Source of the DNA: an uncultured SAR116 cluster alpha proteobacterium
GTDB taxonomy: Bacteria; Pseudomonadota; Alphaproteobacteria; Puniceispirillales; Marisalimonadaceae
Assembly (NCBI GenBank): GCA_902543145.1
Contig: CACBXG010000002.1
Coordinates: 1 to 64,000, forward strand
DNA: 64,000 nucleotides
Direction of reading: 5' to 3'
The notes beneath the pieces are model-generated. The model had not been told where the DNA came from. It made no database searches and saw nothing but the letters and a program-made list of their open reading frames with translations. Of the stretch, positions 9,864 through 20,877 are shown piece after piece; position 1 is the first letter of the stretch, and each line of letters begins with the position of its first letter. Both the position numbers and the translations under genes were made by a program.

Positions 9864-10355
9864 TTATTTTTGTGTACGCTCAGAAATTGTAGGAGCTGGC
9901 TTCATTTCCATATCCCAAGGAAAATATATCCATGTATCCTGAGAAACTTCTGTTATAAATGTGTCAACCTGTTCTCTACCACTTGGCTTAGCATATACTG
10001 TTGCATAATGAGCATTAGGTAAACTTGATCTTATAGCTTTAATAGTTTCACCAGTATCTACAAGATCATCAACTATTAGCCAACCTTCGCCATTATTTGC
10101 TATAGAAGACACTTTTAAGACTTTTACATCACCCTTAGTTTTTTGATTATAAGATAAAACACAAAAAGTATCGATTAATCTGATATCTAATTCTCTTGCT
10201 ACTATGGCGGCAGGCACCAGCCCCCCTCTTGTAACAGCAATTATTCCTTTATAGGGTTTCAATTCCGACAAACGCCAAGCTAGAGCTTTACTATTTCTGT
10301 GTATCTCTTCCCAAGACACTGGAAAAGATTTGTCATATGTATTTGTATTACTCAT
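9864..10355 (-). CDS. gpt: Xanthine phosphoribosyltransferase
   Basis: Salvages xanthine and guanine to their nucleotides. The PRPP-binding loop is [14 protein letters not shown] (about residues 92-105). The N-terminal [16 protein letters not shown] and [14 protein letters not shown] match the Gpt subgroup rather than hypoxanthine or adenine enzymes. Length 163 is normal. It is transcribed towards rpmH and away from the tRNA. Confidence 0.93.
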
Positions 10356-10476
10356 GTATTATATATAAATGTAAAGTTAATATTTTCTACACTAAAATTA
10401 ACAAAAATATAATATTTATTTTCTTACTTGATTATAACTATTTATGTAGATAACTATAATAAACATTTCATAACGT

Positions 10477-10553
10477 GCGCTCGTAGCTCAGCTGGATAGA
10501 GCACTAGACTACGAATCTAGGGGTCAGGAGTTTGAATCTTCTCGAGCGCACCA
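10477..10553 (+). tRNA. tRNA-Arg (anticodon ACG)
   Basis: A full cloverleaf can be folded by hand. The 7-bp acceptor stem is GCGCTCG with CGAGCGC. The anticodon stem is CTAGA/TCTAG around loop CTACGAA, giving anticodon ACG. The T-arm is AGGAG/CTTCT with one G-T pair, and CCA is encoded. It marks the border of the accessory region. Confidence 0.97.
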
Positions 10554-10622
10554 TTTCCTGTTAATATCAATTACTTAAAATAATAGATATTAAATACACC
10601 TCAGTGAATACTAAGTTTTGAC

Positions 10623-10662
10623 ACAGATTTGACACAGCAAGGCAGTGAAATGTATACTAACT
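10623..10662 (+). repeat. Degenerate 40-bp direct repeat, copy 1
   Basis: Begins CACAGATTTGACACAG and ends in the stretch AAATGTATACTAAC. It matches 33 of 40 positions of the copy at 13127-13166. It lies 69 bases after the tRNA-Arg 3' end. The element also contains the heptamer GACACAG twice with 11-base periodicity (10621-10627 and 10632-10638), as seen in arm-type recombinase sites. That role is inferred. Confidence 0.7.
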
Positions 10663-10675
10663 AGAGGTGGAAATA

Positions 10676-10821
10676 TGATACAAAATTATATTCAATGGGA
10701 AAAAAAACAAATAGATTGGTGGAAAGAAAAACTTGGTATTTCAAATCATGGAGTTGCCTGGATATCATTCATCAAGGGTGTTTTAGTAGGATTGTTAGTT
10801 TATCACTTTTTTATACTTTAA
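10676..10821 (+). pseudogene. Short single-pass membrane peptide, apparent frameshift
   Basis: The ATG at 10676 has a good ribosome-binding site (AGAGGTGG) and encodes an N-terminus rich in Trp, Lys and Glu (QWEKKQIDWWKEKLGI). That frame then runs into a stop after about 36 codons. The neighbouring frame, open from near 10696 to 10821, continues as a natural-looking membrane segment (WISFIKGVLVGLLVYHFFIL). Adding one base at the AT/T junction near 10740 would join them into a 48-residue protein. Either the gene is broken or the assembly has lost a base. The alternative is a 41-residue peptide from ATG 10696, which lacks a good ribosome-binding site. Confidence 0.55.
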
Positions 10822-10844
10822 GATTTAAGAGGTAGTTAAATATT

Positions 10845-10958
10845 ATGAGTAAAGATTTTAAAGTTTTTTTGGGAGTTGCAGGTTTTTTAGTTTTGTTAAA
10901 AGGTTATATATTTTTTAATATAAATCCTGCTATGTACCTCAACCCTTTAATAAATTAG
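10845..10958 (+). CDS. 37-residue single-pass membrane peptide
   Basis: Begins MSKDFKVFLGVAGFLVLLKG, with one hydrophobic helix at residues about 6-25, and ends PAMYLNPLIN. A ribosome-binding site AAGAGGT lies about 10 bases upstream. It follows the broken peptide gene by 23 bases in the same direction. The function is unknown. The clean start signal and helix-tail layout make it more than a chance reading frame. Confidence 0.5.
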   Translation: MSKDFKVFLGVAGFLVLLKGYIFFNINPAMYLNPLIN

Positions 10959-11076
10959 TGTTGGTAAATTTACCCCTACTCCAAAAAATTCATAAGTATA
11001 TTAGGTTTGGTTGTTATTCTATTATTTTTTTATTGTTGATTTTTATTTGGATTAGATTTTCTTATGTGATTCATTT

Positions 11077-11169
11077 TTAGAAAAAATATAAAGTTCCAAG
11101 AATTAACAAAACCCAACAAAGAGTTTCAATACTCACAACTTTATAAAATGTTTTAAGTCCTTTCCCCAT
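11077..11169 (-). CDS. Possible 30-residue membrane peptide
   Basis: Minus-strand frame from ATG 11169 with basic N-terminus MGKGLKTFYK and a single hydrophobic helix to the end. The ribosome-binding site is weak. It lies in the 10959-11341 interval, which otherwise holds no longer gene. It is supported only by resemblance in layout to the other tiny membrane peptides nearby. Confidence 0.3.
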   Translation of the reverse strand: MGKGLKTFYKVVSIETLCWVLLILGTLYFF

Positions 11170-11269
11170 TTAAATTTCTTGTCTCTATTTTAGCAAATAT
11201 AAAATATTTATAATAAAAGGTACTAAAATTACATTTATTAAGGAAGTAATTTTCCTCCCTTGAATTGCA

Positions 11270-11289
11270 AAAGAGTATTCGGACTCTTT
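11270..11289 (+). terminator. Small hairpin, possible terminator
   Basis: AAAGAGT pairs perfectly with ACTCTTT around the loop ATTCGG, followed by ATATTTTA. It could end transcripts from the short peptides upstream, or lie in the leader of the mini-protein gene at 11342. Weak, because the T-tract is interrupted. Nothing else is evident in 10959-11341 apart from the tentative minus-strand peptide. Confidence 0.35.
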
Positions 11290-11341
11290 ATATTTTACTT
11301 ATCTTTTTTGGTTTGCTCTAAAACGACACCATATAAGAACC

Positions 11342-11521
11342 ATGAGAGTAAGAACTAAGGAATGTTTTAAGTGTGATGAACCAAAAGAAGTTCTTTATCG
11401 ATGTAGATATAAAGAACTAAAAGATTGGGTGTTTCTATGCGGAATGTGTCTGCAAGAAGTCAAAATTGCATTTGTAGAAAGTTATCAATATGGTGGGACT
11501 TGGAAGAGTAAGAAGAAATAA
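11342..11521 (+). CDS. 59-residue five-cysteine mini-protein (putative zinc ribbon), member A
   Basis: Cysteines at 8, 11, 21, 33 and 36 give the spacing C-x2-C-x9-C-x11-C-x2-C. Two CxxC knuckles are the usual way to bind one zinc ion; the fifth cysteine between them is unusual. The C-terminus QYGGTWKSKKK is basic and could contact nucleic acid. Three other genes in this window (11694-11915, 20111-20344, 20668-20877) have the same cysteine spacing. The function is unknown. I recall similar short proteins in marine picoplankton but cannot verify this. It converges on the cysteine-rich peptide gene 18 bases away. Confidence 0.75.
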   Translation: MRVRTKECFKCDEPKEVLYRCRYKELKDWVFLCGMCLQEVKIAFVESYQYGGTWKSKKK

Positions 11522-11539
11522 ACTATTTTACTCTGTGCA

Positions 11540-11665
11540 TCAGTTAACTGACTCACTACAGCATCCATCACTGCAACAACTACTACTACACTCACCAGTG
11601 TTGCAACCATCACTACAACAACCATCTGCACAACAAGTATCTATTTTATCTGACAATTCATTCAT
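11540..11665 (-). CDS. 41-residue cysteine-rich, metallothionein-like peptide
   Basis: Minus-strand frame from ATG 11665, preceded by GGGAG seven bases upstream. Ten of 41 residues are cysteine, at 11, 12, 16, 17, 21, 26, 30, 31, 35 and 36. They are arranged as CC-x3-CC-x3-C, then C, then CC-x3-CC, with Asp, Ser and Gly between and no hydrophobic core. That composition fits a metal-thiolate cluster peptide or a modified (post-translationally processed) cysteine-rich peptide. It matches no metallothionein family I can name. The plus-strand frame over the same bases is its Gln-rich shadow. The copper operon lies 1.6 kb away on the same strand. Confidence 0.65.
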   Translation of the reverse strand: MNELSDKIDTCCADGCCSDGCNTGECSSSCCSDGCCSESVN

Positions 11666-11693
11666 TATAGAACTCCCGTATTAATATATACGA

Positions 11694-11915
11694 CTATAAA
11701 GTTATATTATATAGAGGTAATTCTAAATTAGAAAGTTTTAATCTACATCCTATGATTCTTTTGATGTTTTCAATCTGACTAATAAATCTAATTCTTACAC
11801 TTCTGATATCTCTAATACAGTTATAACAAATAGAAACCCCCTCTTTATGATGTCCATATTTACACCTCCATAAAGTCATGAATGGGTATTCACATTTACT
11901 ACAGAAATAACTCAT
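11694..11915 (-). CDS. 73-residue five-cysteine mini-protein (putative zinc ribbon), member B
   Basis: From ATG 11915, cysteines fall at 5, 8, 18, 30 and 33: C-x2-C-x9-C-x11-C-x2-C. An upstream in-frame ATG at 11948 exists, but 11915 has AGG nine bases ahead and places the first CxxC at the same depth as in the relatives. The C-terminal part (SQIENIKRIIGC, then LELPLY) matches member C at 20111-20344 (SQFQNIKSFIKC, then IELPFY), so these two are true paralogues and not just cysteine-pattern look-alikes. The function is unknown. Confidence 0.75.
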   Translation of the reverse strand: MSYFCSKCEYPFMTLWRCKYGHHKEGVSICYNCIRDIRSVRIRFISQIENIKRIIGCRLKLSNLELPLYNITL

Positions 11916-12102
11916 TTTTAAATACCTATCCCCTAATTTTCTAATCACTAATAATAATCTATAAATTCAATAAGTATCAATTCAAAAACACCCCCCCACT
12001 TAAAACTGACATGCAAAACCTAATCTATAAACCACCATAATGTTCAGAGAGAAATAGCAATTACTCTTTACCTTCAAAGAATATTTTGATTAGACTGTAA
12101 TT

Positions 12103-12729
12103 ATGGATAAAAAAAATAAAATTTCTTGTTCATGTGGTTCATGCCAATTATTTCTAAATGACCCATTACCTAAATATTCTGTAATGTGTGCATGTGAAGA
12201 TTGTAGGCAGGCATTGCGATGGGCAGAGATAAATGGGGGTAAAAAACCTAAAGATATACTCTATTCTGTATATTTTCGTTCAGATATTCAAAGTTATAAT
12301 GGAATTGAGAATATGATTGCAACTCAACTCAGAAGGGATGCAAGTTCAACGAGGATATATTGTAAGAATTGTTTTTCTTGTTTTGCTGTTGACCATGTTA
12401 ACTATCAAAATAATGTGTTTATGATTCAACCTGATTATTGTAAGCAGAATTTTAACTTGCAAATACCACCATTAGCTGTCCTTAATTTACAAGATTATCC
12501 GAGAGAATTTGCTGAACTAGACTCTGATACTATTCCTGTTTTTCATTCAAGAAAATATCCACAAGAGAGAAAAAGATTTTTATCCATTGAACCAATATCT
12601 GAGTATCTTACCCCACCAAAAATCCCTGCTGAAGGAATAACAATAAGAGAACTTATCACAAAAATTGGAAAAATTAGAGTATTGGATTTAATTAGAGGTG
12701 ATAATCTAGAGGAACTACAGAATGAATAA
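12103..12729 (+). CDS. GFA/CENP-V-like zinc-binding protein
   Basis: The cysteine layout CSCGSC (residues 9-14), CACEDC (29-34) and a later CKNC is that of the Mss4-like GFA fold, named after glutathione-dependent formaldehyde-activating enzyme. After the fold comes a 100-residue C-terminal extension not found in minimal GFA proteins, so it probably belongs to a longer uncharacterised subgroup. The reaction is unknown. The stop overlaps the start of the NTF2-like gene by 8 bases, so the two are coupled. Confidence 0.75.
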   Translation: MDKKNKISCSCGSCQLFLNDPLPKYSVMCACEDCRQALRWAEINGGKKPKDILYSVYFRSDIQSYNGIENMIATQLRRDASSTRIYCKNCFSCFAVDHVNYQNNVFMIQPDYCKQNFNLQIPPLAVLNLQDYPREFAELDSDTIPVFHSRKYPQERKRFLSIEPISEYLTPPKIPAEGITIRELITKIGKIRVLDLIRGDNLEELQNE

Positions 12730-13102
12730 GTTAATTCTTAAGCAGGAGGTTTTGGATGCGTATGATGGTTATGTTAAGGCATTTGTAAATGGAGATACAA
12801 AAGAAGTTGAAAACTATTTAAGTTTTCCTAATTATAGATTTTTAGATGGTAAAATAAAAAAATTTAAAGAATTTCATTCTAACCTAAATGAATTAAAAAA
12901 TAGAGGTTATAAAGATACAATTGCACTTAGCATTGATGTTGTAGAAATTAATGAAGAAAAAGCACATTTAGTTTTAAAAGAGGCATTGAGAGTTAAGGAT
13001 AAAAATGAACCACTTGAAGAAATAAGTTCATTTTATATTTTTATTAAAGAAGATGATAAATGGAAAATAAAATTCAGTTCTGCTTTCTTTTTTCCTAAGT
13101 AA
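12722..13102 (+). CDS. NTF2-like (SnoaL-type) small protein
   Basis: A 126-residue alpha+beta protein: two N-terminal helices (EVLDAYDGYVKAFVNGDT), then alternating strands ending in DDKWKIKFSSAFFF. This is the order seen in NTF2-like/DUF4440 domains. There is no diagnostic active site. It overlaps the GFA-like gene by 8 bases, so a joint role is likely. Confidence 0.65.
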   Translation: MNKLILKQEVLDAYDGYVKAFVNGDTKEVENYLSFPNYRFLDGKIKKFKEFHSNLNELKNRGYKDTIALSIDVVEINEEKAHLVLKEALRVKDKNEPLEEISSFYIFIKEDDKWKIKFSSAFFFPK

Positions 13103-13126
13103 TAATTAAGTACCCTCAGATTTTGT

Positions 13127-13166
13127 CACAGATTTAACACAGTAACGCTGTAAAATGTATACCAAT
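13127..13166 (+). repeat. Degenerate 40-bp direct repeat, copy 2
   Basis: Same orientation as the copy at 10623-10662, with 33 of 40 bases matching. The best-kept blocks are CACAGATTT, ACACAG and AAATGTATAC. Together the two copies bracket 2.5 kb that contains only small orphan genes and no recombinase. The stretch after it (13167-13300) holds no gene I can support. Confidence 0.7.
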
Positions 13167-13300
13167 TCAATAATAAATCTGTCAAAAATAAGTGGTTAAA
13201 GAGGAGAACTAAAAGAACTAGAAACATGATAAAGTTTCTAAATTGTTTGAAAGAGTTTTTATCTAACCAAATATTAGCAAGATCTTTATTAATTAAAGAT

Positions 13301-14173
13301 TTAACCTCCCATAGGTAAAGTCATCGAAGTGGTGATAATACTAGTTGAGGATAAGATAAGTAACGCAATGTACATTTCAATGCGAATGGATTTTTTTAGT
13401 TGAATCGAGCCGACTGTAGGCTCGTTTTTTATTAATGGAACATTTTTAAATTTATTTAGAGCACCAAATAAAAGTAATAAAGAAACTAAAGACATTTTAA
13501 TTAAAAATGCGTTACCATAAGAAGTGTCAAATAATAGATTAATGTCATTCATCAAAATGTATGCAAATGAACCTCCAGATATTATTAAAACAACTAAATA
13601 AAAAACAGCTAGAATACCAAATCTGTGGGCTATTACATGAAGATTACTTGTATTAGTAGAGGAGCACATATTGTATAATGGGATAAAAGATCCAAGCCAA
13701 AACGCCACACAAATGAGATGAAAAAATAGTAATATCTGTGCCAAAATACCAGATTTTTGGGAATGACCTGTATAAATAAATGATAAAAGAACAAAACCAA
13801 TACCTAGCCACCCAAGGACCCTTAGAGAGACTAATTCATATCTTGCGCTAATTAAAATTAGTGTAAAACCAATTAATGCAAAAATCGCTGCATATCCACC
13901 CTTAGATGTAAAAGCAAGCTCTAAAATAATTGGGTCTAAAATACTCAAAAATTCTCCACCTAAATTACCTGCTATGGAAAATATCATCCCAACTGATATC
14001 ATAAGGCCATACAAACAACTCTTTTGAGATAAAAAGTTACACTGTTCCATGTTGTCTATTGTTTGATACTTTCTAAAATGAAGATCAAACAATTTAGTTC
14101 CAACTACTACTAATCCAACTATATAGAATAGAACTTTTAAAACAGGAGTGAAAACTATCCATACATCCATCAA
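13301..14173 (-). CDS. copD: CopD-family copper-resistance membrane protein
   Basis: A 290-residue inner-membrane protein with about eight hydrophobic segments. The central FHLICVAFWLGSFIPLY carries the His and Trp expected of the CopD domain. CopD is thought to move copper from the periplasm to the cytoplasm together with CopC. It is the last gene of the copper operon, 31 bases after the multicopper oxidase. A 7-bp hairpin directly after the stop (13282-13300) may end the transcript. Confidence 0.85.
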   Translation of the reverse strand: MMDVWIVFTPVLKVLFYIVGLVVVGTKLFDLHFRKYQTIDNMEQCNFLSQKSCLYGLMISVGMIFSIAGNLGGEFLSILDPIILELAFTSKGGYAAIFALIGFTLILISARYELVSLRVLGWLGIGFVLLSFIYTGHSQKSGILAQILLFFHLICVAFWLGSFIPLYNMCSSTNTSNLHVIAHRFGILAVFYLVVLIISGGSFAYILMNDINLLFDTSYGNAFLIKMSLVSLLLLFGALNKFKNVPLIKNEPTVGSIQLKKSIRIEMYIALLILSSTSIITTSMTLPMGG

Positions 14174-14204
14174 ATATACCTTTTAACATCCTTAGATGTA
14201 TTTA

Positions 14205-15611
14205 CTAACTTTTCCTATAATTTGGTTTAACAGCTGTAAATTGGGTTGTTTTTATCTTAGGTTTTGAAGACATAAGTGGATTGCCTGTTCCATTTATTTT
14301 TGACATTTTTGGCAATTCACCTTTATACTCATAAGCCTGTTTTCCTATAGGATTTTTAAACCAACCGGGATCAGTGTAATCGCCTGGGGCTTGATCAGCT
14401 CTGACCTTAAGTATACTAAACATCCCTCCCATTTCAACAGAACCATAAGGACCATCTCCTGTCATCATTGGGATTGTATTATCTGGTAATGGCATGGTCA
14501 TTTCAGTCATATCAGCCATTCCTCGTTCACCCATAACCATATAATCTGGCACTAACTTCTTAATCTTTTCTGATACTCCTCTATGGTCAACGCCAATCAT
14601 AGTAGGCACATTATGGCCCATAGCATTCATTGAATGATGGCTTTTGTGACAGTGCATTGCCCAGTCTCCTTCTTCGTCAGCAATAAACTCTATTTGCCTC
14701 ATTTGGCCAACCGCTATATCACTAGTTACTTCTTTCCATCGACTCTCTGGTCGAGTTGGTCCACCATCTGTACCTGTTACCTCAAACTCTATTCCATGGA
14801 CATGAATAGGATGGTTTGTCATTGTTAAGTTTCCAATTCTTACTCTAACACGGTCATTTTTTCTTGCTATAAGGGGTGAAATTCCAGGAAAAATTCTGCT
14901 GTTCCAAGCCCATAAATTGAAATCAAGCATAGTCATTATTTTTGGTGTCTCTGAGCCAGGGACAATATCAAATGCATTTAGTAAAATACAATAGTCTCTA
15001 TCTACTTTGCTAATCCAGGGATGCTCTTTTTTTGGATGAGTAACCCAAAATCCCATCATACCCATTGCCATTTGTGTCATTTCGTCAGCATGAGGATGGT
15101 ACATAAAGGTACCTGGTCGTTTTGCTTTAAATTCATACACGAAAGTTTTTCCTGGACTTACAGCTAATTGGTTTAGCCCAGCTACTCCATCCATTCCATT
15201 TGGTAGTCTTTGGCCGTGCCAATGAATACTTGTATGTTCTGGCAATTTATTTGTAAGGAAAATTCTAACATTATCACCCTCAACAACTTCAATTGTAGGG
15301 CCAGGACTTTGTCCATTATATCCCCAAAGATTAGCATTCATTCCAGGTGCTAGTTCACGAACAACAGGTTCAGCAACTAAATGAAATTCTTTAAAGTTAC
15401 CATTCATCCTGTAGGGCAGTGTCCAACCATTAAGTGTAACAACGGGATTATACTCGGAAGTTTCTTTTAACTTATTTGGACTGATTGTTTCTGCAGACGT
15501 TTGTATTACCGGCTCGGGCAAACCTGCAAGTGAAGAGGTTGCAACCGATGCACCAGCTATTGCTGTACCTGCTAAGGCAGACATCTTTATAAATTCGCGT
15601 CTTGATTTCAT
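14205..15611 (-). CDS. Tat-exported multicopper oxidase (CopA/laccase type)
   Basis: Exported by the twin-arginine path: SRREF at residues 3-7, then a hydrophobic stretch ending near SLAG. Copper sites are complete: HWH (130-132), HPH (172-174), HPIHVH (267-272) and MHCHKSHH (319-326), with Cys321 as the type 1 ligand and Met331 placed as axial ligand. A Met-rich tail follows (about 365-395). Probably oxidises Cu(I) in the periplasm. At 468 residues it is shorter than classical CopA. Its place between the TolC-like gene and copD supports a copper role. Confidence 0.9.
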   Translation of the reverse strand: MKSRREFIKMSALAGTAIAGASVATSSLAGLPEPVIQTSAETISPNKLKETSEYNPVVTLNGWTLPYRMNGNFKEFHLVAEPVVRELAPGMNANLWGYNGQSPGPTIEVVEGDNVRIFLTNKLPEHTSIHWHGQRLPNGMDGVAGLNQLAVSPGKTFVYEFKAKRPGTFMYHPHADEMTQMAMGMMGFWVTHPKKEHPWISKVDRDYCILLNAFDIVPGSETPKIMTMLDFNLWAWNSRIFPGISPLIARKNDRVRVRIGNLTMTNHPIHVHGIEFEVTGTDGGPTRPESRWKEVTSDIAVGQMRQIEFIADEEGDWAMHCHKSHHSMNAMGHNVPTMIGVDHRGVSEKIKKLVPDYMVMGERGMADMTEMTMPLPDNTIPMMTGDGPYGSVEMGGMFSILKVRADQAPGDYTDPGWFKNPIGKQAYEYKGELPKMSKINGTGNPLMSSKPKIKTTQFTAVKPNYRKS

Positions 15612-15643
15612 TTAAGTCTCCTTTTTTTTAAAACTATCTCTGA

Positions 15644-17044
15644 CTAATGCCCTTTTTTTGCTTTATTTGAGGCAATTGGAATGGTTCTTGATCTTGCCCC
15701 AAATTTTCTTCCTACTGCAACACTATTTAAGTTAAGTTCTGCAGTGAATAAGTTTTGTAATGCGTCTATTGCTTTTATTTCAGCTGTTGATTTCTCAAGC
15801 CCGCTTTGCATCAATTCAAATACCCCAATTATCATTCCATTATAATTATAAGTTGCTTCTTCTAAGAGTGTTTCATGCATTGGAATAATTTGATCATAAT
15901 AATGTTTTGCAATATCAAAAGTTGTTCTGTAATTTTGGTAAGCTTCACGAAATTCAGAAGCTGCAGTTAGTATGACATTTTCATAAATCTTTTGCTTAGC
16001 AATTAGTTCTGCTTGAATTGTATCTCTTTGAAGATTACCCCAATCGAAGATTGGAATTTTAATTTCAAGTTCATAGCCTTTTTTGTTTGAGATAACCCCA
16101 TCATCTTTTATTCTATCATTTCTATATCCAAATTCGATATCTGTGTAAGAATTAATTTTTTCAACTCCTAACTGTTCCAATAACAACTCATATTCAATAC
16201 GAGCAGTTTTTACGTCAAATCTATCACTAATTTTATTGGCAATTTTCTCAATTGCTATTGGTGCTTTTGGTAACTCTGGTAGTTGTTTAGGTATTGTTAA
16301 ATTTTGGGCTTCACTTTTTGTTAGACCTATTTTACGTATCAAGTTTTCTCTACTAGATATTTTTCTCATTTTTGCCTTAGCAAGTGCTATAGTAGATTCT
16401 GAATAGATCAATTGTTGACGAATTCGATCACTAGTTGTCATATTACCAGTCTTTTTCATTCGTTTAGCAAGTTCAGCATTTGCAGAAAGAGCAATAAAGG
16501 CATTATCATAAAGTGTTAATTGTTGTTCTGAAGCAACCGCTTCAAACCAAGACATTCTTACATCATTTATTGCTCCATAAATTTCAGAGGCAAAATTTAT
16601 ATCATTCAAATCAATGGCAAGTTTAGAGGATTTTTGTTTAGTTGGTAGTGAGAGCAAATCAAGTAGCCCAAAACTTAAAAACCTTCCATATTCTATTTCA
16701 GAACCCTTAACCATTCGTTCAAAAGAGAAAACTGGATTAGAAATCCTTCCCTTTTGAGCTGCAGCTGATCCACTCCCGCGATATTTAAATAAAAGCGATT
16801 GAAAACTAGGACTTTTAGATAGCATTAATTCTACGGCTTCTTTTTCACCAACTTCTGATTTTAGAAGAGCTTTTGAATTATTTAATAATTCATTTTGTTG
16901 TTCCTGGTTAATAGCTGCTGTTATTTTACCAGCAATAACTATATTTTTGTTACTGTTAATTTTAGTTAAACTATCTTCAAATTTATAAGACGTACAACCA
17001 GATAATATCAATATTAAGCTGAAATAAAATAATCTAAATCTCAT
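15644..17044 (-). CDS. TolC-family outer-membrane lipoprotein (CusC-like)
   Basis: Outer-membrane efflux factor with two repeated OEP domains. ATG 17044 is chosen because it gives a lipoprotein signal (LILILSGC) at residues about 10-17; the longer upstream frame runs into the preceding gene. Long coiled-coil helices are evident at about residues 150-240 and 330-450, for example ASEFREAYQNYRTTFDIAKH. No RND pump or membrane-fusion partner is nearby, so it either works with proteins encoded elsewhere or has another envelope role in copper handling. Confidence 0.85.
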   Translation of the reverse strand: MRFRLFYFSLILILSGCTSYKFEDSLTKINSNKNIVIAGKITAAINQEQQNELLNNSKALLKSEVGEKEAVELMLSKSPSFQSLLFKYRGSGSAAAQKGRISNPVFSFERMVKGSEIEYGRFLSFGLLDLLSLPTKQKSSKLAIDLNDINFASEIYGAINDVRMSWFEAVASEQQLTLYDNAFIALSANAELAKRMKKTGNMTTSDRIRQQLIYSESTIALAKAKMRKISSRENLIRKIGLTKSEAQNLTIPKQLPELPKAPIAIEKIANKISDRFDVKTARIEYELLLEQLGVEKINSYTDIEFGYRNDRIKDDGVISNKKGYELEIKIPIFDWGNLQRDTIQAELIAKQKIYENVILTAASEFREAYQNYRTTFDIAKHYYDQIIPMHETLLEEATYNYNGMIIGVFELMQSGLEKSTAEIKAIDALQNLFTAELNLNSVAVGRKFGARSRTIPIASNKAKKGH

Positions 17045-17051
17045 TGTTAAC

Positions 17052-17369
17052 CTATTTTTTTTCCTCACTTTTTTCACGAGAGTAATATTGCCACCCTCCA
17101 ATTTCATCGACTGTGTTATTTGAAATAATCCAGTTTGATGTGTCCTCCCATTCCCAATTTTCATAAGAGTCAAAAATTGATTTATATATGTTTTTATTTG
17201 ATAAATTCTCCTCACTTTTAGCGGCAACTGAAGTAGAAATGGTACTTGCAATCAGTAAGAAAACTAGGCTTTTGAATGCTAATAAAAAATTTTGAAAATT
17301 AAAATGGTAAGCTGACATTAAAGTGTTAAAAAAATTAATTTTTGTGATTGATTCTTTTTTTATATTCAT
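17052..17369 (-). CDS. Small exported protein of the copper operon
   Basis: 105 residues (or 88 from the internal Met18). A hydrophobic signal segment ending near SVAA is followed by a short soluble part. Its end carries W-x-I-x4-TVDEIGGWQYYSRE. I recall the IGGW-x-Y pattern next to or within copper TolC operons of other Proteobacteria, but cannot check this here. It lies 7 bases before the TolC-like start and 15 bases after the CopC-CusF gene. The role is unknown. Confidence 0.65.
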   Translation of the reverse strand: MNIKKESITKINFFNTLMSAYHFNFQNFLLAFKSLVFLLIASTISTSVAAKSEENLSNKNIYKSIFDSYENWEWEDTSNWIISNNTVDEIGGWQYYSREKSEEKK

Positions 17370-17384
17370 CTTTTTTATAGTTAT

Positions 17385-18014
17385 CTATTTTGATTCAATT
17401 TTAATAAGTTCTAATTCTTTATTAACTTGAAACTTGACTTTGTCTCCCCTTTTAAGGTTTGAGATTATTTTTTTATCTGAGACATTAAATTCCATTGTCA
17501 TTGCTGGCATTAACTCACCTAATGGCCCATGTTTTATTGTTATTTTTGTCCCTCTTACGCGTTTAACTTGACCTTCACCATTCAACAGTTTTACATCAGT
17601 GCCTGATGTGTCTGAACCTTTTGGTGATACCTCAAATATAAATTCTCCCTTAATGGCATGACCATCTTCACTAAGTGCGCGCCATGCTGTTTTATAAATA
17701 CCGTCGTTTAATTTAGGTAGACTGATGATGTGACGTCTTAATTCTTTCATTAGATGATCTTTACTTAATTTTATCGGGGTTAAAGCTTCGTTCCCAAGAA
17801 GGCCACTAATTAATGATTTTTTTTGGTCTGATGTAACTTTTGAGAGCTCAACTTTGATCAATTTAGCTGGTGCAGTAAAAACAATTTCCATTTTTTCTGG
17901 AGCCTTTTGGATTATAGACCCATCTTTTGGTACTACAAAACCTACTGGCGAGTGAGCAAGAGCAGCTGAAAAATTCAGCAATAAACTTAATATAAATATT
18001 CCGAGTTTCTTCAT
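17385..18014 (-). CDS. Periplasmic CopC-CusF fusion copper chaperone
   Basis: A signal peptide ends at Ala20, leaving His21 as the mature N-terminus, the usual CopC copper ligand. The CopC domain runs to about residue 132 and includes SEDGHAIKG (115-123) with the second-site Asp/His. A CusF-like small barrel follows (about 145-207), with His162 and PAMTMEF giving Met172 and Met174. The aromatic that precedes PAMTM in E. coli CusF (Trp) is Met here. It is the first gene of the copper operon, behind a MerR-type promoter. Confidence 0.85.
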   Translation of the reverse strand: MKKLGIFILSLLLNFSAALAHSPVGFVVPKDGSIIQKAPEKMEIVFTAPAKLIKVELSKVTSDQKKSLISGLLGNEALTPIKLSKDHLMKELRRHIISLPKLNDGIYKTAWRALSEDGHAIKGEFIFEVSPKGSDTSGTDVKLLNGEGQVKRVRGTKITIKHGPLGELMPAMTMEFNVSDKKIISNLKRGDKVKFQVNKELELIKIESK

Positions 18015-18083
18015 TAATATTATCCAATAATTTTTAAACGATTTTGTGGTGAGTAAAAAAGTTTTTACGAGCCTTCATTATTT

Positions 18084-18114
18084 TATTTAATCTCTACCCT
18101 TAGGGGAGAGTCAA
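18084..18114 (-). promoter_or_regulatory. MerR/CueR-type promoter and operator of the copper operon
   Basis: On the minus strand, -35 TTGACT (18109-18114) and -10 TAAATA (18084-18089) are separated by 19 bases, the over-long spacing typical of MerR-regulated promoters. The spacer is filled by a dyad, CTCTACCCT / AGGGGAGAG (18092-18110), with 8 of 9 pairs. It lies about 70 bases before the CopC-CusF start. No MerR-family regulator is in the window. The rest of 18015-18342 is plain AT-rich sequence with no gene I can see. Confidence 0.7.
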
Positions 18115-18342
18115 CCATATTTTTAAATTTTATATATATTTTAAAAATATATCAAAATACCAAAATCATTCTAATGATTATTTCTCTATTATTTCCGGAG
18201 ATATCGATATTTTATTAAATAAATTATTTTATAAACCTTCTTATCAAAGAAGAGTGAAGAAAAAATTTTATTACTGTAATTTAAACATTAGAACCTAAAT
18301 TATTTTATTTAATTTTTAATATTATTTTGTTTAAATTATAAT

Positions 18343-19167
18343 ATGGTAAAAATTATTTTCAGCAGAAAAGGTCTCGATAGTACTGCCGGTGGGATCCCAA
18401 GTCCTAAAAAAGGAAAAAATATTCAAAGTTTTCCAATTCCATATAAAACAAATACGCTAACTTCATATGAGTATCTTGGTTTTGGGAAAGAAATAAATCA
18501 GTTATCTAAAAAAAAAATTAAACCTTCAGATACTTGTCATTTTGATCCCAACTTAGAAACTGGTCAGTTTGGCCAAGTAGGAGCTGCTCAAACACATCTC
18601 GAAAATAATAAGGTTGGAATAGGTGATATTTTTCTATTTTGGGGATGGTTTAGAGAAACTGTAGAATTTCATAATAAAATTTCCTTTTCAAAAACTGATC
18701 CTGGTCACTATAGAATGTTTGGCTGGTTTCAGATTGGAGAAATTATAAAACTTGGAGATGACCCAAGTTGGTATTTAAAGGAGAAACCAAAGCCAAGTTC
18801 GCACCCACACACCATTGGTAAATGGAAAAAAAATAATACTCTTTACATTGCAAAAAAAAATCTGGAAGGTTTTAAGTTAAAAAATTTTCCAGGGTTTGGA
18901 AAATTTAAAGCTACTAATATGACAAATTTAAGCTTTAACCCTTTAGTAAAAAAATCTAAATGGATTTGTCCTCAGTGGTTAAATCCTAAACGTGGTGGTT
19001 GTGGCATGTCATATCACAAAAATCTCAACAGATGGAAAGAAAATACAGTAGACATTGTTGGACGAGGCCAAGAGTTTGTTGCTAAACCTAAAAATGATAA
19101 AGAATGTAAAAAATGGTTAATGTCTATTTTTCAATCAGCTGATTTAAAAGAAAATATAAACGTTTAG
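18343..19167 (+). CDS. Nmad3-like protein (nucleotide modification associated domain 3)
   Basis: 274 residues. The N-terminus KIIFSRKGLDSTAGGIPSP, followed by the segments HFDPNL, FGQVGAAQTHL and GDIFLFWGWFR, agree with my memory of the Nmad3 family, found near DNA base-modification genes in phages and bacteria. The enzymatic role is unproven. No other DNA-modification gene is adjacent here. It is divergent from the copper operon and has no clear ribosome-binding site. Confidence 0.65.
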   Translation: MVKIIFSRKGLDSTAGGIPSPKKGKNIQSFPIPYKTNTLTSYEYLGFGKEINQLSKKKIKPSDTCHFDPNLETGQFGQVGAAQTHLENNKVGIGDIFLFWGWFRETVEFHNKISFSKTDPGHYRMFGWFQIGEIIKLGDDPSWYLKEKPKPSSHPHTIGKWKKNNTLYIAKKNLEGFKLKNFPGFGKFKATNMTNLSFNPLVKKSKWICPQWLNPKRGGCGMSYHKNLNRWKENTVDIVGRGQEFVAKPKNDKECKKWLMSIFQSADLKENINV

Positions 19168-19241
19168 ACTAAATGTATTCTTTAATGAGTTTATAAATCA
19201 ATAATGTTTACCAATGAATATTAGTTATTTAGAATATAAAT

Positions 19242-19875
19242 ATGAAATTAATTACTGCTACTCCAAGCCCATTTGCTCGTAAGGTACGTGTTGCTTTACT
19301 TGAAAAAAATATAAGTTATGAAGAAGTTATTGATATACCATGGAATTTAAACACCAAAACAAATGGTATTAATCCTCTTGGCAAAATTCCTATTCTTCTT
19401 TTAAAAGATCAAGAGCCTATGTTTGACAGCAAAGTTATAAATCAATATTTAGATTACTTAAAACCAAATCAACTTTTATATCCTAGGTCATTTCAAGAGA
19501 ACATTTCTGCTAGATTATTAGAAACAGTTGCAGATGGAATTTGTGACTCTGTTGTTTTAGTATTTTTAGAAAACTCTAGAAACAAAGATTTGAGAAGTAA
19601 AAATTGGATTAAAAGACAAGAGAAAAAAATTTTTGAAGGGGGTAAAGTATTTATCAAATTATCTTAAAGACAAACAATTTTTTGTTGGAAATAGTTTCAG
19701 CATTGCTGATATAAGCTGTTTTTCTTGCTTAGAATACATTGATCTTAGATTTCCAAAATTTGAATGGAAAAACAGATATAAAAATCTAAATAAATACTGG
19801 AATATTCATAAAATTAGAGATTCATTTAAAAAAACAAAACCAAAAACACAAATCATAGAACCTATTCAAGATTAA
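19242..19875 (+). pseudogene. Glutathione S-transferase with a frameshift
   Basis: The first frame (19242-19667) gives the thioredoxin-like domain: MKLITATPSPFARKVRVAL with the Ser-Pro-Phe active-site region, then GKIPILLL and DSKVINQYLD. The C-terminal helical domain continues in the next frame to 19875, with NSFSIADISCFSCLEYIDLR, the usual GST helix-capping segment. The frames join at a run of five G near 19638-19642, where losing one base restores IFEGVKYLSNYL. This is either gene decay or a homopolymer error in the assembly. Confidence 0.75.
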
Positions 19876-20014
19876 AAAAATAAACTTAACAAAATCTATG
19901 ATTATAATAATTTATTAATATAATAAAAATGCTTTTAAGTTTTAAATTAAACTGCCAAATTAAATTATTTATTGAAAAGATTATTTAGATTATCTCTGGA
20001 GTTGGGGATCAGTA

Positions 20015-20107
20015 ATGAGTAAATTGGGAATTATTTTAATAATTTTATTTGTAATTTTTATATTTTTTCCAACTATGTCTTATTGGATTAATCAGTGGAG
20101 TTTTTAA
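20015..20107 (+). CDS. 30-residue single-pass membrane peptide
   Basis: MSKLGIILIILFVIFIFF is a single hydrophobic helix, followed by a short tail ending QWSF. A GGAG/GGGG-rich region 10-20 bases upstream may be the ribosome-binding site. Its stop is 3 bases before the start of the five-cysteine protein at 20111, so the pair is likely translated together. The function is unknown. Confidence 0.45.
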   Translation: MSKLGIILIILFVIFIFFPTMSYWINQWSF

Positions 20108-20110
20108 AAG

Positions 20111-20344
20111 ATGTTTAAGTTAAATAGTTTTTGTAAAGAATGTTTTGATCCACATAAAATAATATGGAGTTGTAAAAAAAACTTTTTGGATAAAAATTGG
20201 ATTTATCTTTGTGGTAATTGCATAAGATATTATCAATATTTAAATGGTAAAGATTTTAGATCTCAATTCCAAAATATAAAATCTTTCATTAAGTGTAGTT
20301 TACAGTTGAAGGAAATAGAACTGCCATTTTATGAAGCAATGTAA
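20111..20344 (+). CDS. 77-residue five-cysteine mini-protein (putative zinc ribbon), member C
   Basis: Cysteines at 8, 11, 21, 34 and 37: C-x2-C-x9-C-x12-C-x2-C. The C-terminal half (SQFQNIKSFIKC, then KEIELPFYEAM) aligns with member B at 11694-11915, which shows common descent. It sits between a 30-residue membrane peptide (3-base gap) and a 96-residue membrane protein (8-base gap). The function is unknown. Confidence 0.75.
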   Translation: MFKLNSFCKECFDPHKIIWSCKKNFLDKNWIYLCGNCIRYYQYLNGKDFRSQFQNIKSFIKCSLQLKEIELPFYEAM

Positions 20345-20352
20345 ATAAAATT

Positions 20353-20643
20353 ATGGAACATATGATTTTTGAAATATTTATATTTTGTATGTTTATAATT
20401 TTAGGTGTTTTAATTTTTGGTATAATGAAATGGTTATTTAAATATTTAAAACTATGCTACCTCCACATTAATTGGAAAATTAAAATATTGATTATTTTTC
20501 CTCTAAGTGCTCTTATAATTATCCCTTGGTTTCTTTTTCAAACTCTAATTTTTAAAGGTTATGTAGAATTAATTATGGCAATTATATTAGGGTCTATCGG
20601 GTCTCACTATATTTTTGGTGATGAAGAAAAAAATGAAATTTAA
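20353..20643 (+). CDS. Small three-helix membrane protein
   Basis: 96 residues with hydrophobic helices at about 5-25, 44-64 and 70-86, and an acidic tail GDEEKNEI. No family recognised. Flanked on both sides by five-cysteine mini-proteins (gaps of 8 and 24 bases), so the four genes 20015-20877 look like one transcript. Confidence 0.6.
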   Translation: MEHMIFEIFIFCMFIILGVLIFGIMKWLFKYLKLCYLHINWKIKILIIFPLSALIIIPWFLFQTLIFKGYVELIMAIILGSIGSHYIFGDEEKNEI

Positions 20644-20667
20644 AAAATATTTATATATTATTATTCT

Positions 20668-20877
20668 ATGAAATATCATTATTGTTCAAGATGTAATCAT
20701 CCCTCTAAAAAATTATTTAATTGTAAGTACGAAAAAAATGACAATGATTATTTTGTTCTTTGTGCCAATTGTGCATTAAAGTGTAGCAAGATTTTTAAAA
20801 AAACTTTTAAATCAAAATCTGGAAAATTTGTTTCAATTGGTTTGTTAAAATCCAGGAAAGAAAGAAGTATTTTTTAA
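20668..20877 (+). CDS. 69-residue five-cysteine mini-protein (putative zinc ribbon), member D
   Basis: Cysteines at 6, 9, 19, 32 and 35: C-x2-C-x9-C-x12-C-x2-C, with a sixth at 39. The tail is strongly basic (KIFKKTFKSKSGKF, then KSRKERS). The family match rests on the cysteine spacing and the shared shape of the N-terminal half; the C-terminal half differs from members B and C. The function is unknown. Confidence 0.7.
   Translation: MKYHYCSRCNHPSKKLFNCKYEKNDNDYFVLCANCALKCSKIFKKTFKSKSGKFVSIGLLKSRKERSIF

Follow-up and report, generated by a model that had tools for sequence, protein, structure and literature searches.

How did a streamlined marine genome come to carry, within about 9.5 kb, four short genes with nearly the same five-cysteine spacing, and what might their products do? 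We addressed this question in a 64,000-nucleotide stretch (the window) of an uncultured SAR116 cluster alphaproteobacterium, which represents positions 1-64000 of contig C2 in a 1.9-Mb assembly that is 76% complete. SAR116 bacteria abound in the sea and have small genomes. Judging from sequence comparison, the four proteins, named A to D, form one uncatalogued family whose members have 55-80 residues in all. The A and B genes are a cargo pair of a decayed element at tRNA-Arg(acg), and C and D make up a separate backbone locus a short way past the insertion point. The explanation towards which we lean slightly is that of single-zinc treble-clef mini-proteins with a tail that would bind nucleic acid or the ribosome, A and B being mobile at tRNA-Arg. 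A constrained family without a library match above cut-off, carried by elements of a few kb, is a defined target for function tests and gives a clear view of gene trade at tRNA hotspots in streamlined genomes.

The five-cysteine proteins and their relationship

The four short open reading frames (ORFs) that the original prediction had singled out for a common five-cysteine spacing were all found, and the strand of B had to be corrected, to minus:

11342-11521, plus strand: protein A, 59 amino acids (aa), YGGTWK type
11694-11915, minus strand: protein B, 73 aa, SQ-x2-NIK type; a longer GTG start is also open at 11948
20111-20344, plus strand: protein C, 77 aa, SQ-x2-NIK type, part of the genus backbone
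20668-20877, plus strand: protein D, 69 aa, SKSGKFVSIGL type, adjoining C in 10 of 16 compared C-bearing loci

A and B read C-x2-C-x9-C-x11-C-x2-C exactly, and C and D have x12 in the second gap. The motifs SQ-x2-NIK-x2-I-x-C and LP-x-Y, previously noticed in B and C, are present in both. The four copies within about 9.5 kb are real, but they belong to two loci and not to a single cluster. Across the six reading frames of the window the exact five-cysteine pattern turns up four times, whereas 30 mononucleotide shuffles gave no instance. For the wider family the count was confined to ORFs without interruption that have x9 and all four outer cysteines; the search pattern fixed x9 and left the second gap free at 9 to 12. 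The second gap in these sequences is 11 in 92/92 A, 15/15 B and 4/4 members of a fifth type, E, which directly precedes the A-type gene in some loci; it is 12 in 19/19 C and 12/12 D. The x9/x11 spacing is kept exactly in 76 of 80 A-type loci, and the four misfits (L094, L118, L123 and L157) have lost a cysteine, with the spacing not altered.

The family is under purifying selection, with median ratios of nonsynonymous to synonymous substitution (dN/dS, from pairs with dS of 0.1-1.2 only) of 0.16-0.20: 0.20 for A (421 pairs), 0.16 for B (90), 0.16 for C (82), 0.20 for D (45) and 0.17 for E (5). A chance origin of the pattern is ruled out by the shuffles, the dN/dS values and the spacing across loci. 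Profile-profile comparisons join A with B/C (97.1%, E 5e-11), B/C with D (95.9%, E 6e-9) and A with D (96.2%, E 3e-9). Library matches are below cut-off or unconvincing. Every Pfam match of A-D fell below cut-off; the best of them, KDM6_GATAL to D, reached 18.5 of 27 bits at E 0.0019. NCBIfam had no match to A-D, PHROGs gave nothing better than E 0.037, and type E had no match in Pfam. These comparisons and searches support the claim of one undescribed family. Nothing on this family was found in open-access literature searched by title and abstract start. A known defence part was ruled out by a PADLOC scan of A-D, which had no match at E 0.1.

Predicted fold and possible function

A mini zinc-ribbon family had been proposed. 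Zinc ribbons carry both CxxC knuckles on beta-hairpins. In the AlphaFold models of A and C, computed for protein only, the second CxxC lies instead at the start of a helix (34-43 in A, 35-48 in C) that follows a beta-hairpin. The A model (predicted local distance difference test 82.3, predicted template modelling score 0.59) has strands at 17-22 and 30-32, the helix, and a strand at 49-55 (YQYGGTW). The C model has the same order of elements, with block means of 80-86 over residues 1-50 and values under 50 in the tail (55-77). According to a passage of PMC4999995, a treble clef is made of an N-terminal knuckle, a beta-hairpin and a helix, with two ligands each from the knuckle and the helix start. 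The element order and the place of the second CxxC in both models agree with this description, and the fold is predicted to be a treble clef, weakly like ZZ/RING-type fingers. Structure prediction thus upheld a zinc-finger-like fold and spoke against the ribbon.

The four outer cysteines would hold one zinc, and the fifth, situated in the first hairpin strand, would be structural. This middle cysteine is kept throughout types B (15/15), C (19/19), D (12/12) and E (4/4), and in 81/92 sequences of type A. The other 11 A-type sequences have valine (5), isoleucine (4) or serine (2) at this position, and the nine with valine or isoleucine are all nine A-type sequences found in one gammaproteobacterial family. 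Among the 76 spacing-exact A-type loci the middle residue is cysteine in 74 and serine in 2; L094, one of the four loci that lost a cysteine, is without the middle one too. Since the middle cysteine can be replaced by hydrophobic residues, a position in the hairpin core is favoured over an essential metal ligand, and it is probably not a zinc ligand. The earlier expectation that the odd fifth cysteine is conserved was accordingly half borne out: it holds for B to E and most of A but fails in the nine gammaproteobacterial homologues.

Protein A has 14 K/R against 8 D/E, and in 59 chosen rows of the A-type alignment YGGTWK is invariant and K58 nearly so. Because A is net positive, YGGTWK is invariant and the end is mostly basic, the short type-specific C-terminal tail may bind nucleic acid or the ribosome, and an adaptor with such binding is the most likely function suggested by the sequences.

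The main rival explanation takes up the likeness to ZZ fingers. The ZZ and RING-like fingers (CBP ZZ, p62 ZZ, B-box) have the order of knuckle, hairpin and helix in common with the family; in ZZ-like profile matches the first-strand YRC and the helix C-x2-C align with it, and ZZ/RING-like structures are among the best rows for A in the structure comparison, where rows are tied and weak. Like ZZ and UBR fingers, the proteins could then read a peptide or protein partner, perhaps as proteolysis adaptors or regulators, with cargo copies in a retuning role. Two gene neighbourhoods hint at this and weigh against a nucleic-acid- or ribosome-binding adaptor: two genomes from a single gammaproteobacterial genus have an A-type gene that overlaps a LonB-type protease gene at its end (L171:1498-3164, L175:1498-3164), and in a Halomonas bin an FtsH gene comes after the A-type gene (L114:326-3048). 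However, a protease neighbour was noticed in these three loci only, and the profile scores are below or near noise, all under thresholds, with a beta-glucuronidase at E 0.3-0.5 in the same lists. The Pfam model of ZZ (PF00569) matches 2 of 59 A-type members at all, at best with E 0.14.

The second zinc site of ZZ consists of a second cysteine two residues past the middle one and two histidines. That cysteine is found in no row of two family alignments (26 and 19 rows), the second zinc site of ZZ/UBR is missing, and the family tail is a different one. The UBR box (PF02207) gives a weak profile match over residues 8-40 of A (13.4 bits, under the cut-off of 25.2; best E 5.5e-4 among other A-type members). 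Part of PMC4999995 describes UBR as a circular permutation in which the knuckle is split and a third zinc is bound, whereas the knuckle of the five-cysteine family is N-terminal. On this balance we regard the ZZ-like protein adaptor as unlikely and favour a putative nucleic-acid- or ribosome-binding tail.

The insert at tRNA-Arg and mobile elements of relatives

The mobile-element setting of A and B had been overlooked in the original prediction. Besides these two genes, the insert and its left border include the following features:

10477-10553, plus strand: tRNA-Arg(acg), the integration site; the insert is bounded on the left by the 3' end of this gene
10554-18305, no strand: the insert relative to the empty site of relative G032, 7.75 kb
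10617-10636, no strand: left integrase-arm-like repeat pair TTTGACACAGATTTGACACA, intact
10645-10821, plus strand: 58-aa protein, membrane-like by eye; several relatives also have it upstream of A
11540-11665, minus strand: cysteine-rich metallothionein-like peptide, damaged by a 5-residue deletion and an early stop by comparison with relatives
12103-12729, plus strand: GFA-like cysteine protein (PF04828 E 0.0023, below cut-off)
12722-13102, plus strand: NTF2-like protein (DUF4440 E 2e-4, below cut-off)
13121-13165, no strand: degenerate right arm-like repeat, 38/45 identical to 10616-10660

At the empty site of G032 (locus L024), window positions 10079-10553 correspond to L024 1-476 and positions 18306-19131 to L024 496-1320. 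As the match with G032 breaks off at 10553 and is taken up again at 18306, the insert encloses A, B and the copper genes described below, whereas C, the 96-aa protein next to it and D are outside. The GFA-like and NTF2-like genes belong to a right-end module that the window has in common with the elements L215 and L216; both genes are present in L215. With the queries used, no integrase or resolvase remnant was found in window positions 10400-13400 at E up to 1, and no right attachment site (attR) in positions 1-26000 at up to 8 mismatches in 40. In L085, the closest relative (97.6% over 9 kb), integrase fragments lie upstream. The element copy in the window has lost its integrase and right attachment site and kept its cargo.

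A and B are carried by a small element whose integration target is the 3' end of tRNA-Arg and which, in relatives, has a tyrosine integrase and paired arm-like repeats. The neighbour check proposed earlier was carried out and revealed tRNA, arm-repeat and integrase context around A-type loci. Around the 80 A-type loci, some of which are close relatives and hence not all independent, ARAGORN tRNAs are upstream on the same strand in 23 cases, upstream on the opposite strand in 3, downstream on the same strand in 1 and downstream on the opposite strand in 0; they include Arg(acg), Arg(tcg), Tyr, Met, Ser, Leu and Val. Among 18 loci with a tRNA upstream on the same strand, 7 (L089, L090, L113, L119, L137, L140 and L144) carry a second copy of its 3' end on the downstream side of A. 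The arm repeat TTTGACACA was found near the tRNA/integrase end or the right repeat in 9 of 14 loci checked; as the other five (L094, L133, L137, L140 and L144) are without it, the islands are not all of one kind. The exact arm pair has 36 occurrences in 21 of 61 genomes (reversed control 0), of which 17 are within 6 kb of a family gene against 0.47 expected at random.

Seven element regions of 1.9-9.4 kb were read, four picked without a nearby family gene and three with one. The latter (L216, L217 and L218) have the order tRNA-Arg, arm pair, 327-aa integrase, five-cysteine gene(s), arm pair and tRNA-end repeat, and this attR-like repeat begins 110 bases past the arm start. No five-cysteine gene is present in L212, L213 and L214, which are complete elements. 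L215 (562-2561), of 1.9 kb, is without an integrase but has both arm pairs and repeats the tRNA-Arg end exactly; it is possibly a non-autonomous form. The integrases of L216 and contig C46 of the window's genome belong to PF00589 (E 3e-27 and 3e-29). Elements without five-cysteine genes, together with free-standing copies, identify these genes as optional cargo.

The elements recall tRNA-linked integrase islands treated in passages of PMC10187409. They also have in common with tycheposons a tRNA border, a tyrosine recombinase and variable cargo, as far as these are described in parts of PMC10872708, and the tRNA with tyrosine recombinase was seen in L212, L213, L214, L216, L217 and L218. In contrast, the window copy and L215 are without an integrase. 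The cargo elements of tycheposons span 4-200 kb in the same source; the seven elements span 1.9-9.4 kb, L215 being under that range. They further differ in sitting at tRNA-Arg with TTTGACACA pairs on both ends.

A bolder combination of these observations appears distinctly unlikely to us. The proteins would be half-ZZ fingers that keep one zinc site and, from the second, a relic cysteine, and they would spread as swappable adaptor cargo on a new family of tiny tRNA-Arg elements, of which integrase-less forms such as L215 may move in trans. Streamlined SAR116 cells would thereby gain a mobile set of mini-proteins for host control, with AAA+ proteases as a possible target.

The copper genes occupy 13301-18014 of the insert and encode CopD, a multicopper oxidase, an outer-membrane efflux protein and a CopC-CusF fusion. 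They are 96-100% identical in L085 and absent from the same place in L090, hence they were gained or lost separately from A and B. A cysteine-rich peptide of ~50 aa (CCADGCCSDGC...) is found near A also in L085, L086, L089, L090, L137 and L144; 33 locus entries match it, overlapping entries included, and a Pfam scan had no match.

These two neighbours, the peptide near A in SAR116 loci and the copper genes within the A/B insert, could suggest a metal-stress cargo in which the five-cysteine proteins buffer or sense metals together with them. We consider this very unlikely: L090 has the A-B module without copper genes, such genes were not noticed in nine other loci viewed, and the cysteines look structural.

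Equally unlikely is a regulator of the element or a phage-satellite gene, controlling excision, replication or a helper phage, for which the recurrent place 1.3-2.2 kb before the right repeat and an IMG/VR contig (L164) with an A-type gene ~1.2 kb from a serine recombinase could speak, since full elements without a five-cysteine gene and free-standing chromosomal copies exist and A and B have no match in phage records. A phage or plasmid gene was ruled out by record scans: neither A nor B matched any of 50,697 phage records, and a composite A-type query matched none of 72,556 plasmid records. IMG/VR yielded 0 loci with the single A protein and 1, L164, with the A-type profile.

The backbone locus, spread of the family and other neighbours

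C, a membrane-like protein and D form the second locus, which is kept in many genus members:

20353-20643, plus strand: 96-aa protein between C and D, membrane-like by eye, in 13 of 16 compared C-bearing loci

The flanks of these 16 loci are short for most; D and a cupin are present in 10, and Nmad3 precedes C in 9. A C gene with at least 72% identity is kept in 22 of the 37 genomes of the genus, the window's own being counted. Just past the insert is the Nmad3 gene itself (nucleotide modification associated domain 3, 18343-19167, E 6e-57). It is followed by a glutathione S-transferase-like gene (by eye) in two overlapping frames, perhaps by frameshift (19242-19875); both pieces match in relatives L017, L018, L020 and L026.

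In its own genome the C query has seven matches: besides the four genes of the window, contig C46 carries an A+B pair and C18 a single B. The A query adds a decayed A-type copy at C2:215365 with two outer cysteines lost. With cross-hits between types included, the C query has a match at E of 0.01 or less in 36 of 61 genomes and the A query at 0.001 or less in 37 of 61. Several A-query matches carry in-frame stops, thus family copies also die.

The A-type is rare outside its own group, being present in 5 of 385 genomes of the class and 3 of 398 of the phylum (own included in both), in 2 of 148 of one gammaproteobacterial order and in 9 of 118 of one family within that order. A collection scan gave at least 587 pattern matches, at least 525 of them relatives, and the best 80 were kept as 79 loci. 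Carriers among these best 80 are SAR116, other alphaproteobacteria, Litoricola, Porticoccaceae, Halomonadaceae, Granulosicoccus, Burkholderiales and Methylophilaceae. The A-type thus spans marine Alpha-, Beta- (Burkholderiales, Methylophilaceae) and Gammaproteobacteria, and the family has multiplied in SAR116. The A-type protein tree is mostly unresolved (45 of 77 inner branches open), therefore we make no claim on the direction of transfer.

A 93-aa protein (..LLEREPNTSIL..) without a Pfam match overlaps or touches the A start in 13 of 80 loci, these 13 being alpha- and gammaproteobacterial and including L092, L098, L099, L108, L112 and L113, and another kind of gene lies directly upstream of the family gene in L016, L065 and L116. 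A constant operon partner was ruled out, as neither is universal. COQ7 adjoins the A-type gene in L166 of the gammaproteobacterial family.

The 3' end of glmS is the classical Tn7 target. A glmS homologue is within 6 kb in 10 of 80 A-type loci (L095, L101, L108, L112, L118, L124, L130, L135, L147 and L158), and its 3' end faces the A-type gene in all 10: seven share the strand of A and end 119-972 bases upstream of it, and the other three lie downstream on the opposite strand. Finally, in Vreelandella azerica a DDE transposase gene (L121:5453-6895) precedes the A-type gene by ~1.1 kb.

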